DNA from: a virus
DNA length: 26,279 nucleotides
Direction: 5' to 3' (one strand)
Virus record (IMG/VR): IMGVR_UViG_3300009130_000117
Location: 1-26,279 of that record
Both the position numbers and the translations under genes were made by a program. The notes below the pieces were generated by a model, which worked only from the letters and a program-made list of their open reading frames with translations, ran no database searches and was not told the DNA's origin. Positions 776-26,279 of this stretch are shown piece after piece. Every line of letters starts with the position of its first letter. Position 1 is the stretch's first letter.

Positions 776-878
776 AATGAAAGAAATTTTGACGAAATAC
801 AAAGAATTTTTTGTTGTTTCTTATCTAGTAAACAAAGAAAAATGAAAGTTTTTTTCATTTTGTCATTGTAGAATGAAA
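776..878 (+). promoter_or_regulatory. Operator-like array of AATGAAA half-sites
   Basis: AATGAAA occurs at 776-782, 841-847 and 872-878, and its inverse TTTCATT at 853-859. Sites 839-847 and 853-861 form a perfect 9-bp inverted repeat with a 5-nt spacer. The last half-site lies in the spacer of the promoter at 866-894. The same arrangement recurs at 3182-3205 and 25850-25887. The string TTATCTAGTAAA at 821-832 also recurs at 25829-25840. I infer binding sites for a phage regulator. AATGAAA also occurs by chance in this A-rich coding DNA, so the clustering and inversion carry the weight. Confidence 0.5.
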
Positions 879-894
879 GTTTTTTTTATCTTTG
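866..894 (+). promoter_or_regulatory. Bacteroidetes-type promoter for the 932 operon
   Basis: A TTG (-33 type) at 866-868 and a perfect TAnnTTTG (TATCTTTG) at 887-894 are separated by 18 nt, within the usual Bacteroidetes spacing. Transcription would begin near 898-902. This should drive the small-gene operon 932-2766. Confidence 0.6.
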
Positions 895-931
895 TAGTAT
901 GAAAACAGAAACAAACCTAAAAAACAACACA

Positions 932-1225
932 ATGGAAATGAAACTATCTTTCGAAATCTTTGGTGACTGGTATCTTGGTGACACAAAGTGGTGTGTGGTT
1001 TGTAACGAAACACAAATGGTGATCGGTTGCAACACAAAAAAACTTGCAACTGAATTGAAAAGAAACTGGACATCTTGGGAATATGTTGATCAAACAAAAT
1101 TGCGTCCAGAAACAACATTCAGATTCTGGAACAAAACAGATGAAGAAACTTTCACATCTGATGATTCATTCGACAACATCTTCAATCTTTTGGATCTTCC
1201 GAAAGATCAACTGACAAATTTTTAA
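932..1225 (+). CDS. Hypothetical protein (97 aa)
   Basis: I do not recognise this protein. It begins MEMKLSFEIFG and is rich in Trp and Phe with a charged C-terminus, which suggests a small soluble globular protein. An ATG at 899 is in frame, but it lies only 5 nt after the -7 box. The ATG at 932 has the A-rich leader ACCTAAAAAACAA, also found before the gene at 25956, so I prefer 932. If transcripts are read as leaderless, the 108-aa form from 899 is the alternative. First gene of the small-gene operon. Confidence 0.6.
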   Translation: MEMKLSFEIFGDWYLGDTKWCVVCNETQMVIGCNTKKLATELKRNWTSWEYVDQTKLRPETTFRFWNKTDEETFTSDDSFDNIFNLLDLPKDQLTNF

Positions 1226-1257
1226 TATATTAGTAAACTAAAAAACCAAAAAACAAA

Positions 1258-1692
1258 ATGGAACAAAAACTTCAAATCACAATCAAAGACGACACAATGA
1301 AAGTTGTCCAGATTGTGGATCAAAAAGAACATGAACTTGCAAACAGAAATTTTCAAGATCATGAATGGAACAAAATGATTGATGCATTTCAATCAACATT
1401 CATCAGACCAAAAACATTTGCATTCACTGAAATTGACTGGTGGGTTGCAGTCAATGAATTCGGTCGTGGAAACTGGACACGTAATTTCTACAAATTGGTT
1501 GTTTCATATCCGAATGGATTCAAATATAAGTTTCGAACATTCAAAGAATTCAATGATGTCTTCGGAATGAAATTTCACAAGGAAACAACATTTGATCAGT
1601 TCAAAGAAACCATGAAAAGAATTCATGATGAATTGAAAACAGATCAAGATCCAGCGTTCAATGTTTATCAATCAGAATTTGACGTGTCATGA
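1258..1692 (+). CDS. Hypothetical protein (144 aa)
   Basis: No family recognised. The start follows an A-rich leader (CTAAAAAACCAAAAAACAAA). The protein has a Trp/Phe-rich centre (EIDWWVAVNEFGRGNWTRNF, about residues 59-78), probably beta-rich, and a helical charged tail. The stop overlaps the next start in an ATGA arrangement at 1689-1692, which suggests translational coupling. Probably a soluble early or accessory phage protein. Confidence 0.65.
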   Translation: MEQKLQITIKDDTMKVVQIVDQKEHELANRNFQDHEWNKMIDAFQSTFIRPKTFAFTEIDWWVAVNEFGRGNWTRNFYKLVVSYPNGFKYKFRTFKEFNDVFGMKFHKETTFDQFKETMKRIHDELKTDQDPAFNVYQSEFDVS

Positions 1693-2111
1693 ATTCAGAA
1701 AATTTCACATCAAAAAACACTGAATGCAATTTCGATGTTGACATTGATGGATTCAACAAATGGTTCATCAAAGAATTCGACATGCCAGAAGATATTGAAA
1801 TCGATTGTGTCACACCGATCATTCAAGTGGACTGGTCGTTTTATCTTGAAATGCGATCATGGGGTGTCAAGTCAATCGGTGCGTATGCAACAAAAGTTTC
1901 TGGATCAATAGTTGTTGACTATTACGACACCGAAGAAAAAGAACATCAATTTGAAATCACTGATCTTGTTCTGAACAAATACTTTTCAGAATGGGAAAAT
2001 GAAAATGGTGATTTCATTGAATCAAATGATCAACGTGAAATTCAAGACACGTTTCAAGTCAATTTATGCACAATCGACTTTGAAGACAAAACGATTGAAG
2101 TTCAATTCTAA
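1689..2111 (+). CDS. Hypothetical acidic protein (140 aa)
   Basis: No family recognised. The protein is clearly acidic, with many Asp and Glu and no membrane segment or signal peptide. Its start overlaps the preceding stop (ATGA), so translation is probably coupled. Strongly acidic small phage proteins sometimes act as DNA mimics that inhibit host DNA-binding proteins, but nothing specific here proves this; it is only a possibility. Confidence 0.65.
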   Translation: MNSENFTSKNTECNFDVDIDGFNKWFIKEFDMPEDIEIDCVTPIIQVDWSFYLEMRSWGVKSIGAYATKVSGSIVVDYYDTEEKEHQFEITDLVLNKYFSEWENENGDFIESNDQREIQDTFQVNLCTIDFEDKTIEVQF

Positions 2112-2120
2112 AAATAAAAA

Positions 2121-2378
2121 ATGACAAAAAAGAAAACACTGGAATGCGGAATGTGTGAAGGCAAAGGACAAGTGCTGATGTCGTGTTGTGGCTACAATAT
2201 ACATGGACACGATTCTGATCTATGTCCAGATTGCAAAGAACATTGTGGTGATCAAACGGAAGATTGTTTCGATTGTGATGGAACTGGATCTTTTGAAATG
2301 CCACAAAGTCAATTTGAACATCTTATTCAATGCGGAATCAAATTCAAGGAAATAAAATCAAATCACTTTAATAACTAA
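2121..2378 (+). CDS. DnaJ-like cysteine-rich zinc-finger protein (85 aa)
   Basis: The protein has two CxxCxGxG-type knuckles: C9-x2-C12 followed by EGKG, and C49-x2-C52 followed by DGTG. Between them are C22-C23 and C35-x2-C38-x3-C42. CxxCxGxG repeats are the zinc-binding signature of the DnaJ central domain. There is no J domain, so this is a stand-alone zinc finger rather than a co-chaperone. It starts 9 nt after the previous stop with leader AAAATAAAAA, inside the small-gene operon. Likely role is protein or nucleic-acid binding; the target is unknown. Confidence 0.6.
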   Translation: MTKKKTLECGMCEGKGQVLMSCCGYNIHGHDSDLCPDCKEHCGDQTEDCFDCDGTGSFEMPQSQFEHLIQCGIKFKEIKSNHFNN

Positions 2379-2391
2379 AAAAAAGAAAACA

Positions 2392-2766
2392 ATGGCAAAA
2401 AAAGAAAAATCAAAATCATTGACACCAGAAGACGAATGTTTCAAAATCATTCAAGCGATCTGGTCATGCAAAGATGACGAACAAAAAAAAGGTTGTGAAA
2501 ATATGTTGAAGACATACATCAAGAAACATGGTGATGACAACATCGGAATCACATTCATCAAAATTGAATTGATGCGACTTGAACAAATCATCAAACTGAC
2601 AAAATTGCGAAACGAACAAATGAAAAAAGTTCAAGATGGACTGGCGGCACAAAAAAAAGAACAAGATGAAAAACTTGAAGGAATGCCACCACCAACAAAC
2701 GAACAACTGCAAAAAGCAATGAAAGAAGGCAACATCATAAATTTGCCAAATGCTGCGAAAAATTAA
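2392..2766 (+). CDS. Hypothetical coiled-coil protein (124 aa)
   Basis: No family recognised. The protein is Lys/Glu/Gln-rich and predicted by eye to be mostly alpha-helical. A long charged segment around residues 50-95 looks like coiled coil, followed by a Pro-rich turn (GMPPPTNEQ, near residues 96-104). Last gene of the small-gene operon; it is followed at once by the hairpins at 2775-2826. Confidence 0.6.
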   Translation: MAKKEKSKSLTPEDECFKIIQAIWSCKDDEQKKGCENMLKTYIKKHGDDNIGITFIKIELMRLEQIIKLTKLRNEQMKKVQDGLAAQKKEQDEKLEGMPPPTNEQLQKAMKEGNIINLPNAAKN

Positions 2767-2774
2767 AAATAAAA

Positions 2775-2798
2775 AATCACAATCTTTGTGATTGTTTT
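2775..2798 (+). terminator. Hairpin with short U-run, weak terminator
   Basis: AATCACAA (2775-2782) pairs perfectly with TTGTGATT (2786-2793) across a 3-nt loop, followed by GTTTT. The stem is AT-rich and the U-run short, so on its own it is a weak terminator; it may act in tandem with the next hairpin. Confidence 0.4.
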
Positions 2799-2826
2799 CC
2801 ATTGATCTTCGGATCTGTGGTTTTTT
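2799..2826 (+). terminator. UUCG-tetraloop intrinsic terminator
   Basis: GATC (2804-2807) and GATC (2812-2815) enclose a TTCG loop with the favoured C-G closing pair. CCA (2799-2801) pairs with TGG (2818-2820), with one T-G wobble and one T-T mismatch in between. Six T follow at 2821-2826. This fits an intrinsic terminator ending the 932-2766 operon. Confidence 0.6.
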
Positions 2827-2830
2827 AGGT

Positions 2831-2882
2831 GAAACCGATTGCGACTTTGAAGATTCCAAACTTCATTGTTGTGGTCGGTTTC
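2831..2882 (+). ncRNA. Long structured RNA hairpin in leader of gene 2904
   Basis: Bases 2831-2845 pair with 2868-2882 over 15 consecutive positions, four of them G-U (2839-2841 and 2843). Next come two opposed U-U positions, then a 5-bp stem (2848-2852 with 2861-2865) and an 8-nt loop. The wobbles pair only in the + strand transcript, so the structure is one of RNA rather than a DNA palindrome. No long U-run follows, arguing against a simple terminator. It ends 21 nt before the ATG at 2904 and could be a leader regulator, processing site or small RNA. Confidence 0.45.
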
Positions 2883-2903
2883 TTAATTTAACAAAATAAA
2901 AAA

Positions 2904-3167
2904 ATGAAAGGTCTGGACAAATACAAATCGCTTGAAGATCATTTGAACAAAACACAAGAACACAAAATCAAAGATCATGAACTGAATGAAACATTTGACA
3001 AGGTGATCACATTGAAAGTTTCCGAAGAAACATTTGAAGCATGGGAACTTCTTTGTGAAAACTGGGGTGATGTTCTTGGCTACGATAACAAATCAAAGAT
3101 ATTTGAATTCGCAATCATTGAAGCATTGAATGTTCCGATTGCATCGCTTGGGGGTTTCAACATTTAA
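2904..3167 (+). CDS. Small ribbon-helix-helix-like protein (87 aa)
   Basis: After a charged, helical N-terminus, the segment DKVITLKVSEETFEAWELL (near residues 32-50) resembles a beta strand and first helix of a ribbon-helix-helix domain. A second amphipathic helix follows (NKSKIFEFAIIEALN). RHH proteins are dimeric DNA-binding regulators. The gene sits alone between the structured spacer 2767-2903 and the terminase promoter, a good position for a regulator. The resemblance is by eye only; it could be another small helical protein. Confidence 0.5.
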   Translation: MKGLDKYKSLEDHLNKTQEHKIKDHELNETFDKVITLKVSEETFEAWELLCENWGDVLGYDNKSKIFEFAIIEALNVPIASLGGFNI

Positions 3168-3181
3168 TCGTTCACAAATAG

Positions 3182-3223
3182 TTTCATTGAATGAAAGTTT
3201 TTTCAATTAAATTTCTATTTTTG
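3182..3223 (+). promoter_or_regulatory. Promoter and operator-like site before terminase genes
   Basis: TTTCATT and AATGAAA form a 15-nt palindrome centred on G3189 (3182-3196), and a third half-site TTTCA follows at 3201-3205. A TTG at 3187-3189 lies 18 nt before TAAATTTC (3208-3215, one mismatch to TAnnTTTG) and 26 nt before a perfect TATTTTTG (3216-3223). Which -7 box is used is not clear. The site should drive the terminase and probably the downstream tail genes. The half-sites match those at 841-878 and 25850-25887. Confidence 0.55.
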
Positions 3224-4936: not shown

Positions 4937-5413
4937 ATGGCTAAAAAACAAAACGAAGTATCTTTGCAAATTATGGAAAAAATAAAATCTTTGAATAAAA
5001 AACACAAACTGATTCTTGAACACTTTTTCAATGAAGTGGATCGTTTTGTCTATGATATAACGGAAGACCAAAAATCAGAAATGTTTCAAAATTTTATTCT
5101 ATTGAAACGAAAAGCAAAACTTCTTCACAACACACTGGGTGCAAACATCAACAACGATGAACGAATTTCAAAAACAGAATGGGTTTTCATGTTGCCGAAT
5201 TTTCTGATGTTCGGTGCGTTCGGTTTTGCACTTGCATTGAAAAACAAAAGCAATGGTGATCTGATTGAACTTCATATTCATGAATTGTTTGAAGAAATGA
5301 CGGACACCATTCATGATCTTGACAAAATGCTTGATGCACACTTTGTGGAACTTGAAGCAACCACAACACTTGAAGAAATAATGAAAAAAAAACAAACTAA
5401 AAAAACAAACTAA
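4937..5413 (+). CDS. Hypothetical phage protein (158 aa)
   Basis: No family recognised. The protein is mainly helical and charged with one hydrophobic stretch (WVFMLPNFLMFGAFGFALAL, near residues 82-101) that could be a membrane segment or a buried helix. It ends in a Lys/Thr-rich tail. It sits between terL and the tail chaperone gene, 1 nt before the latter, so it is probably expressed with morphogenesis genes. Confidence 0.6.
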   Translation: MAKKQNEVSLQIMEKIKSLNKKHKLILEHFFNEVDRFVYDITEDQKSEMFQNFILLKRKAKLLHNTLGANINNDERISKTEWVFMLPNFLMFGAFGFALALKNKSNGDLIELHIHELFEEMTDTIHDLDKMLDAHFVELEATTTLEEIMKKKQTKKTN

Positions 5414-6327: not shown

Positions 6328-6837
6328 ATGTCAGATAATACACTAAAACTGCAACCGCTAATCACACAAATGGAACAATCATGGACATCATTTTCATGTG
6401 GTGGTGGTGAAGGTTCACCGAACAACAGATTTCTTTTCGGATGGTCACAAGAAGTTGATGACGTTCACAACAAGGGAAATATCGGTGAAACCGCATTCAT
6501 GGTTTTGAATCCACCAACATCATCAGCGTCATCCGTTGAAATGGAATATGGACAAGTCAAAACAACCACTTCATTTGTTTGTCAAATATATTCACAAGTT
6601 CCGTCAACACAATTCGGACTTTCACCGACAACAATTCCGGCACACTGGGACGAAATGGAAAATTGCTTTTATCATTTCCTTGATGATGTCTTGTTGAATA
6701 TAGGATCAAAACTTCAACTGGGTGGTGGATCTCTAAATATAACTAGAACAAAACAAGCATCGAATGATCAGTTGTTTCAAATGGAATGCAAATGGAACAT
6801 GGACTATTTCAGACATTGCTTTGTTAATTTACAATAA
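6328..6837 (+). CDS. Putative tail-completion/terminator-like protein
   Basis: The 169-aa protein has a beta-rich body (FLFGWSQEVDDVH near residues 37-49, then a strand-rich segment with EYGQVKTTTSFVCQIYS). A helix follows (HWDEMENCFYHFLDDVL), and it ends with strands around CKWNMDYF. This order of strands, helix and strands resembles small Bacteroidetes-phage neck proteins that cap the tail or join head and tail. It lies between the chaperone and another neck candidate, which supports a structural role. Specific function is an inference. Confidence 0.4.
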   Translation: MSDNTLKLQPLITQMEQSWTSFSCGGGEGSPNNRFLFGWSQEVDDVHNKGNIGETAFMVLNPPTSSASSVEMEYGQVKTTTSFVCQIYSQVPSTQFGLSPTTIPAHWDEMENCFYHFLDDVLLNIGSKLQLGGGSLNITRTKQASNDQLFQMECKWNMDYFRHCFVNLQ

Positions 6838-24416: not shown

Positions 24417-24482
24417 TGGTTGTCAACATGGTCTTGTTCATTGATGTTCAAACAACTATGTTTCAAGTGTTGAAAAAAACTT

Positions 24483-24490
24483 TTACTTTG
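24483..24490 (+). promoter_or_regulatory. Weak -7 box before phosphoesterase gene
   Basis: TTACTTTG differs from TAnnTTTG at one base and lies 4 nt before ATG 24495, the spacing seen at 887-899 and 17141-17154. The nearest TTG (24470-24472) is too close to be a normal -33 element, so this is a weak call. Confidence 0.3.
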
Positions 24491-24494
24491 TCGC

Positions 24495-25736
24495 ATGACT
24501 TTGAAAAATAAAAAACAAAATCGTCCACACTGGGACGAAAATCTTTCACCACTGGTCACTGAACTTCGAAAATTTCCGAAAGCAATTCAAGCACAATGTT
24601 TGAATGCTGCAATCAACTATGCAAAAAAAGGTGGTGAAATTGAAATTGATCATTCAAAAAACAAACAAACAATCACATCACCAAAATCATCAAGGATCAA
24701 AACACTTGATGATCTGATTCGTGTGTGTAAAATAGACACATCGATCTGGAATGTTGATCGATATGTTGTCAACAAATGGGAAGTCGGATCACAAGTTGAT
24801 GGACAAATCATTGTTGAACCATTGTTTCAAATCAAAGCGTGGTTGAAAAGATCCACTGAAATTTTTGAACTGAAAAGGATCAGACAAGAAATGATGGATG
24901 ACATCAAGTCTTTTTCACCGATCTACAAAACAAACAACCACAAGATTGTTGATGAAGGTCAGTTGATGGAAATCAACATCTTTGATCTACATTTTGGCAA
25001 ACTTTGCTGGGGAAAAGAAACTGGTGACAACTACGATATAAAAATTGCCACCAGAAGGTTCATTGATGCGATTTCAGCGATGATAACAAGATCAAAAGGG
25101 TTTGACATCAAACGCATTGTTTTTCCTATTGGAAACGACTTTTTCAATGCAGACACAAGATTCAATCAAACATCAAACGGAACACCACAAGACGAAGATC
25201 TTCGATGGCAAAAAACATATCGTGCCGGACGTGAATTGCTGATCAAAGGAATTGACATGTTGTCAGAAATTGCACCAGTCGATGTGATCGTGGTTCAAGG
25301 AAATCATGACTTTGAAAGATCGTTTTATGTTGGTGATGCAATGGAATGCTGGTATCATAAGAACGAAAACGTGGTGGTCAACAATGGTGCGAATCCACGA
25401 AAACACTATCGGTTCGGACAATGCTTGATCACATACACACATGGAAACAATGAAAAAATTGTGGATCTTCCGTTGCTTGTTGCAAGTGAAGAACCGAAAT
25501 TGTGGTCACAAACAAAGTATCGTGAAATTCATGTCGGACATTTGCACCACAAAAAGGAAATCAAATTCATGTCAACACAAGAACACAAAGGAATGGTGAT
25601 CAGATTCATGCGATCTTTGTCTGGAACGGACGCATGGCACAACTTGAAGGGCTACAAAGGTGGAATCCAGTCATGTGAAATGTTCATCTGGGACGAAAAT
25701 GATGGTCTTGTTTGTCAATTTGCACACAATTTGTGA
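24495..25736 (+). CDS. Calcineurin-like metallophosphoesterase
   Basis: The catalytic set of the family is present: D164-x-H166 (IFDLHFGK), G213-N214-D215, G269-N270-H271-D272, H316 (YTHGN) and G348-H349-L350-H351. These residues bind two metal ions and hydrolyse phosphoesters. The first ~150 residues form a separate helical region (LDDLIRVCKIDTSIWNVDRY) of a kind seen in phage relatives, possibly nucleic-acid binding. The substrate is unknown: nucleotides, RNA or DNA ends are possible. It lies downstream of lysis genes and may have its own promoter. Length 413 aa. Confidence 0.85.
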   Translation: MTLKNKKQNRPHWDENLSPLVTELRKFPKAIQAQCLNAAINYAKKGGEIEIDHSKNKQTITSPKSSRIKTLDDLIRVCKIDTSIWNVDRYVVNKWEVGSQVDGQIIVEPLFQIKAWLKRSTEIFELKRIRQEMMDDIKSFSPIYKTNNHKIVDEGQLMEINIFDLHFGKLCWGKETGDNYDIKIATRRFIDAISAMITRSKGFDIKRIVFPIGNDFFNADTRFNQTSNGTPQDEDLRWQKTYRAGRELLIKGIDMLSEIAPVDVIVVQGNHDFERSFYVGDAMECWYHKNENVVVNNGANPRKHYRFGQCLITYTHGNNEKIVDLPLLVASEEPKLWSQTKYREIHVGHLHHKKEIKFMSTQEHKGMVIRFMRSLSGTDAWHNLKGYKGGIQSCEMFIWDENDGLVCQFAHNL

Positions 25737-25828: not shown

Positions 25829-25903
25829 TTATCTAGTAAAACAAAAAAAGTGAAAAAAACTTTCATTTTTCCATTGTCAGAATGAAAAAAAGTTTTATTT
25901 TTA
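25829..25903 (+). promoter_or_regulatory. Second copy of promoter/operator cassette
   Basis: TTATCTAGTAAA (25829-25840) repeats 821-832. Half-sites follow: GTGAAA at 25850-25855, TTTCATT at 25861-25867 and AATGAAA at 25881-25887. A TTG at 25874-25876 is 19 nt before TATTTTTA (25896-25903), which matches TAnnTTTG in all but the last base. The string AAATCGATGAAAAA at 25740-25753 also repeats 743-756. The whole 25737-25955 gap is regulatory and holds no gene. Confidence 0.55.
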
Positions 25904-25955
25904 CAAAAGAAATCAAGACACAAAGTTTTGATCACACCTAAAAAACAAAAACAAA

Positions 25956-26279
25956 ATGGAAAATTCAAGAAAAATGACGCACAAACCAAATGAAAACGAC
26001 TACACTGCAACAATCAATGTTGCAACAAGAATCGAATTTCAAGTGACAAAAAAATTCAAACAAGTTCGTGAAATGGACTATTCAACTGGATCACGTCCAA
26101 CATTCAAAGTGATGCGAAGACAAATGGAATCTGACTTCGGAAACTGGTCTTCTGATATTATTGAAAGACGTGCAGTTGAAGGTTGCGAAGAATATGCAGA
26201 ATTCACGTCCGAAGAAATGGCACATGTTTTTTGTCAAGCATTGAACAACATGACACAACATGAACTGGTCAATCTTTCA
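25956..26279 (+). CDS. Hypothetical protein, 3' end missing
   Basis: The frame stays open for 108 codons to the window end, so the gene is truncated on the right. It begins MENSRKMTHKPNENDYTATI and is charged and probably alpha/beta; no family recognised. Its leader ACCTAAAAAACAA (25936-25948) is identical to that of gene 932, and its upstream region shares that gene's regulatory layout, which suggests the same expression class. Confidence 0.6.
   Translation, partial: MENSRKMTHKPNENDYTATINVATRIEFQVTKKFKQVREMDYSTGSRPTFKVMRRQMESDFGNWSSDIIERRAVEGCEEYAEFTSEEMAHVFCQALNNMTQHELVNLS

Follow-up and report, generated by a model that had tools for sequence, protein, structure and literature searches.

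A promoter class with phased ATGAAA boxes in a group of tailed phages ascribed to Bacteroidota, and its candidate regulator

The Cro/CI operators of lambdoid phages (OL and OR) consist of several dyad sites of ~17 bp that overlap early promoters and go with a small early HTH protein. Controller proteins of the C.Esp1396I type use tandem operators near a promoter and act both as activator and as repressor. Middle promoters of phage T4 have a MotA box in place of the upstream core element, at a constant spacing ahead of the downstream one. The sigma-ABfr promoters of Bacteroidota have the consensus -33 TTG / -7 TAnnTTTG (PMC6847099, PMC7366714). The promoters described here combine a -33/-7 arrangement of this last type with additional, phage-specific boxes. 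They were found in an entire virus record of 26,279 bases, a linear fragment to which we refer as the window.

Judged by terminase and promoter type, the phages in question are tailed phages of Bacteroidota. By terminase, Flavobacterium phage 11b comes closest among isolates (45% identity), and the isolated phages searched contained no near DNA match to the window. About two dozen related records were gathered through terminase relatives, DNA patterns and the HTH protein discussed below. An exact search of viral contigs for TGAAAGTTTTTTTCATT returned mainly chance matches within genes and yielded one of these records (G015). In the literature on Bacteroidota phage promoters we found no description that matches this promoter set.

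A sequence-only reading of the window had pointed out that AATGAAA and its inverse recur in tight inverted arrays at three promoters (P1, P2 and P3), each time with one half-site shortly after the -33 TTG, and had proposed a single phage regulator for the three transcription units. The positions of these half-sites are correct except for the left half at 25849, which reads AGTGAAA. The placement downstream of the TTG applies to P1 and P3, but not to P2. P1 and P3 are built alike: a distal TTATCTAGTAAA is followed by a dyad box and the -33 TTG, another box lies 31–32 bp downstream of the first one, and the -7 element comes last (Table 1). Since the right half of the second box overlaps the -7 element, this box is only a weak dyad. 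Between P1 and P3 the same 19-bp dyad is flipped, an arrangement open to a binder with two-fold symmetry. Both promoters contain a TTG near -33. P1 resembles sigma-ABfr promoters in its combination of this TTG with TATCTTTG across an 18-nt spacer, and the -7 element of P3, TATTTTTA, differs from the consensus by one letter. A further criterion for such promoters is a transcription start ~4–7 nt after the -7 element. Because ATG 899, the start given in the list of open reading frames, sits at the predicted P1 transcription start, ATG 932 is the more probable start of the first gene.

Table 1. Positions of promoter elements, half-sites and first genes in the window
Feature	Position	Strand	Remark
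P1 promoter	821-894	+	same architecture as P3
P1 distal element TTATCTAGTAAA	821-832	+	imperfect dyad; 3' end at about -70
P1 box 1, AATGAAA-GTTTT-TTTCATT	841-859	+	perfect dyad
P1 -33 TTG	866-868	+	
P1 box 2, AATGAAA-GTTTT-TTTTATC	872-890	+	31 bp after box 1; 8 nt before -7 element
P1 -7 element TATCTTTG	887-894	+	fits consensus TAnnTTTG (PMC6847099)
First gene of P1 unit	932-1225	+	a homologue (G003, G009) spans this reading
Exact half-sites, P1 region	841-847, 853-859(-), 872-878		
Exact half-sites, P2 region	3182-3188(-), 3190-3196		
Exact half-sites, P3 region	25861-25867(-), 25881-25887		
P2 half-sites and dyad	3182-3188, 3190-3196; dyad 3192-3205	+	upstream of terminase small subunit
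P2 -7 element TATTTTTG	3216-3223	+	
P3 promoter	25829-25903	+	same architecture as P1
P3 distal element TTATCTAGTAAA	25829-25840	+	
P3 box 1, AGTGAAA-AAAAC-TTTCATT	25849-25867	+	P1 box 1 reversed with one change
P3 -33 TTG	25874-25876	+	
P3 box 2, AATGAAA-AAAAG-TTTTATT	25881-25899	+	32 bp after box 1
P3 -7 element TATTTTTA	25896-25903	+	
P3 leader hairpin	25912-25932	+	8-bp stem, 5-nt loop, z -3.4
First gene of P3 unit	25956-26279	+	truncated at record end

AATGAAA is not enriched in the window as a whole (41 copies, 41.2 expected). Within the 908 bases of larger intergenic stretches the half-site occurs nine times against 1.8 expected, and the dyad AATGAAA-N5-TTTCATT with at most one mismatch four times against 0.04; none of 2000 shuffles reached either count. 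The arrays are therefore in excess over shuffled intergenic DNA, as expected from the sequence-only reading. Because the motif was discovered in these same intergenic sequences, the independent test is conservation.

The related phages preserve the P1/P3 layout, and the arrays of these two promoters recur in close relatives, the second point on which the sequence-only reading depended. An alignment on ATGAAA of 14 promoters, drawn from eight records including the window, shows one scheme, and the class box can be written as ATGAAA-N5-TTTNAT, ~17–19 bp long and present in two or more copies per promoter. In the closest relatives, the order is TTATCTAGTAAA, ATGAAA-N5-TTTGATT or -TTTCATT, TTG, another ATGAAA 31 bp on and then, after 8 nt, TATCTTTAC or TACTTTTAC. 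Unlike the sigma-ABfr consensus, the -7 element of the class often ends in TTTAC instead of TTTG. A scan of 28 pieces of related phage records (372 kb) paired AATGAAA with a -7 element at gaps of 0–30 nt in 42 cases, and in 27 of these, which are not independent since the records are related, the gap was exactly 8 nt (shuffle mean 0.13). On the opposite strand of the same pieces this spacing did not occur. The distance to a further upstream ATGAAA was 31 bp (eight promoters), 18 bp (four), 42 bp (three) or 20 bp (two), with single cases at 34, 40 and 41 bp; the upstream boxes mostly lie 20, 31 or 42 bp away, which is the same face of the helix, and a distal TTATCTAGTAAA often accompanies them. 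The distal TTATCTAGTAAA is found at the same distance in P1, P3 and four relatives (G010, G012, G013 and G002). Two further phages (G008 and G009) contain three boxes ~21 bp apart instead of two at 31 bp, and by hand count (P1, P3 and L110) the distance from the distal element to the -7 element is constant in both layouts. We tentatively count P1 and P3 among the early or middle promoters of one family in this Bacteroidota phage group.

Variants of the layout also occur. In a compact form (L102 4942, L106 899, L108 814 and L119 6441), the two ATGAAA copies are 18 bp apart, and the palindrome (C)ATGAAAAA(G/C)TTTCAT(G), or one close to it, stands directly upstream of the box. In the window, TTGAAAAAAACTTTTACTTTG at 24470–24490, just ahead of a gene at 24495, resembles a degenerate box with a -7 element. 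Four records of a more distant phage each contain a single copy of box-N8-TATCTTTA, and the metallophosphatase of the one compared is 34% identical. With one copy per record, we rejected this box as a regulon. A homologue of the HTH protein was not found in these four records, an empty search that counts as weak evidence.

The box also changes in concert. Most phages use ATGAAA; G003 uses ATAAAA, three loci (L112, L116 and L117) use ATCAAA, and L115 uses GTAAAA. As a rule the variant letter recurs in several promoters of the same phage, with mixed cases in L111, L110 and L113. Among 40 pairs of promoters from the same phage, 33 share the letter, compared to 17.7 expected (permutation, p about 5e-5), a result that is indicative given the manual assignment of letters and the relatedness of the phages. 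This pattern suggests either a reader acting in trans or promoters that were copied within genomes.

The packaging-gene promoter, P2, behaves differently. Between its TTG (3187–3189) and its -7 element there are 26 nt, a distance too great for a -33 element of that promoter, and its box is separated from the -7 element by 19 nt instead of the 8 nt of the class. At this position ahead of the gene for the terminase small subunit, AATGAAA is absent in all 10 relatives compared; close relatives read AATCAAA-GTTT-TTTGAATT. On account of the different spacing and the missing AATGAAA in relatives, we judge that P2 is not a member of the P1/P3 class. The dyad TGAAA-GTTT-TTTCA of the window corresponds to TCAAA-GTTT-TTTGA in G010, and G001 and G002 are similar. 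Both arms have changed while two-fold symmetry was kept, so P2 may carry a separate operator, of the packaging-gene promoter, for something else. Of the proposal that one regulator controls three units there remains a promoter set shared by P1 and P3, probably with one regulator; P2 drops out as the third member.

The first gene of the P3 unit has homologues in G012 (54% identical) and G010 (52%), located behind the same promoter. The first gene behind P1 encodes small proteins that are unrelated between phages (745–931 in the window; 9040 onward in G010; G012), and the P1 unit of G012 starts, by eye, with a methyltransferase-like protein. Since this first gene differs among phages, P1 may drive a position whose genes are exchangeable. 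Ahead of P1, the window contains a PAPS-reductase-like gene (1–744), and G010, G012, G002 and G003 contain a VRR-NUC nuclease gene at that place. The leaders of class promoters (P3 of the window, G010, G012, G015, L109 and L117) mostly contain a hairpin of 4–8 bp with a promoter-specific stem, followed by ACCTAAAAAA or ACCAAAAAA ahead of the start codon. The P1 leader of the window has the A-rich part, and the hairpin is absent.

Which protein could read these boxes? The distance from P3 to P1 is ~5.2 kb in G010 and G012 and 1.3 kb in the window when read across its ends, which indicates that ~4 kb is absent from the record. In the corresponding stretch of their early region, the relatives encode a Cro/C1-type HTH protein of ~70 residues. 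From this we infer that the phage of the window would carry the HTH gene and two further class promoters. The protein was found in 19 loci, and no terminase relative whose record covers the early region lacks it; these loci were found through the protein, so its association with the box is partly built in. In G010 the gene (73 residues, 6412–6630) sits between the class promoters at 4942 and 7338. The G012 homologue passes the Pfam thresholds for HTH_3 (23.9 bits, cut-off 23) and HTH_26 (24.0 bits, cut-off 22), and the G010 homologue, at 19.4 bits, is just under the cut-off. A structure model (pLDDT 86) contains five helices (8–15, 20–26, 31–39, 46–56 and 60–72), and its best structural matches are Cro/C1-type regulators, at Foldseek E-values of only 0.05 or more. 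The phage collection returned one chance-level match to this protein, and none was confirmed in prokaryote genomes. A second HTH protein, which adjoins the first, has no match in G004 or G007 and is thus not required for a box.

The HTH protein is a better candidate binder than the three that the sequence-only reading had named, namely the products at 2904 (RHH-like), 2121 (zinc finger) and 16743. For 2904 and 16743, Pfam returned nothing, and for 2121 sub-threshold matches only. The 2904 protein has a conserved counterpart in each relative examined, and its gene immediately precedes P2. Its sequence pattern agrees with a ribbon-helix-helix fold, which it might adopt; it has no PDB match and its model is of low confidence (pLDDT 47). 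With AATGAAA absent at P2 in relatives, it is very improbable that any of the three recognizes the half-sites and governs all of P1, P2 and P3.

From the observed promoter class with its phased boxes we infer binding, the identity of the binder and the sign of regulation as follows. Several early genes are probably switched together by one DNA-binding protein. A dimeric protein encoded by the phage would bind the boxes of a promoter jointly; the most likely binder is the Cro/C1-type HTH protein that relatives encode between two such promoters. Occupying the proximal box, it would mask the core promoter, so that the units shut down once the protein accumulates. The result would be a Cro-like negative feedback on the early region, the protein's own operon included, with P2 outside this regulon. 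We assign this explanation as a whole a probability of about 0.48. The concerted letter change, the conservation of layout from promoter to promoter and from phage to phage, and the 8-nt phasing argue for it, as do the rarity of the box in hosts, the presence and fold of the HTH protein, and the position of its gene between class promoters. The recognition helix of the HTH protein, SQPTIKxYC, is constant while the box letter varies, which counts against a simple match between protein and box.

The proposed feedback resembles the lambdoid Cro/CI system in its small early Cro/C1-type HTH protein and its several ~17 bp dyads over early promoters. It differs in that the parts read contain no divergent repressor/Cro switch or integrase; in the stretches of G010 and G012 that were read, from records that may be incomplete, all genes assigned by homology point in one direction. 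Furthermore, the class boxes are phased to the -7 element over many promoters, the promoters are of the Bacteroidota -33/-7 type, and binding is putative. Controllers of the C.Esp1396I type are among the closest solved folds to the HTH model. Unlike those systems, the HTH gene has no adjoining restriction-modification pair, the operator sequence is unrelated, and here also binding is putative.

A plain repressor fits poorly with the rigid 8-nt phasing and with a letter change that leaves the recognition helix unchanged. The box could instead be a positive element, bound by an activator from the phage or by a factor redirecting the host sigma factor, with the bound protein making contact with the polymerase as happens at T4 middle promoters. 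Phasing of the box follows the -7 element and not the TTG, which differs in its distance by 2–5 nt, and the G010 promoters at 4942 and 7338 contain the box without a TTG at the usual distance. A box at fixed distance and the loss of the upstream core element from some class promoters are shared with MotA-dependent promoters. On the other hand, P1 and P3 retain both the TTG and the -7 element and on paper could work unaided. In the early genes that were scanned, neither an activator or sigma-like protein nor a MotA or AsiA homologue was recognized. We consider this alternative unlikely, and equally so its more specific form, in which ATGAAA is a phage-specific core element (box, N8, TAnnTTTG or TTTAC) that can replace the -33 element through such a factor. 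If true, it would be a phage-controlled kind of promoter for which we found no description in Bacteroidota, with a box that changes together from phage to phage. Repression by the bound protein is preferred to activation at only about two to one, because the 8-nt rigidity and the missing -33 TTG at two promoters fit activation better.

A slightly less likely alternative is that the boxes contribute to intrinsic promoter strength: phased A-tracts would curve the DNA or serve the host polymerase as UP-like elements, and no phage regulator would be involved. The boxes are indeed A/T-rich and phased at helical repeats, and in Flavobacterium johnsoniae AT-rich motifs at about -18 and -28 are stronger than -33 (PMC6847099). 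However, most phages keep the G or C of the box, and within one phage this letter changes in concert; bending by A-tracts does not depend on it. The exact element is also very rare in host genomes. TTGNNGAATGAAA-N8-TATCTTTNC matched 16 stretches in 257 billion bases of prokaryote genomes, about half of them in Bacteroidota, and some of the matches lie in clearly coding, GC-rich DNA of other phyla. With so few matches, we rejected the box as a general host promoter element.

The control of transcription in Bacteroidota phages is poorly charted. A class of promoters with a rigidly placed box across uncultured phages provides a testable regulon together with a named candidate regulator, and its members are possible promoter parts for Flavobacterium-type hosts.
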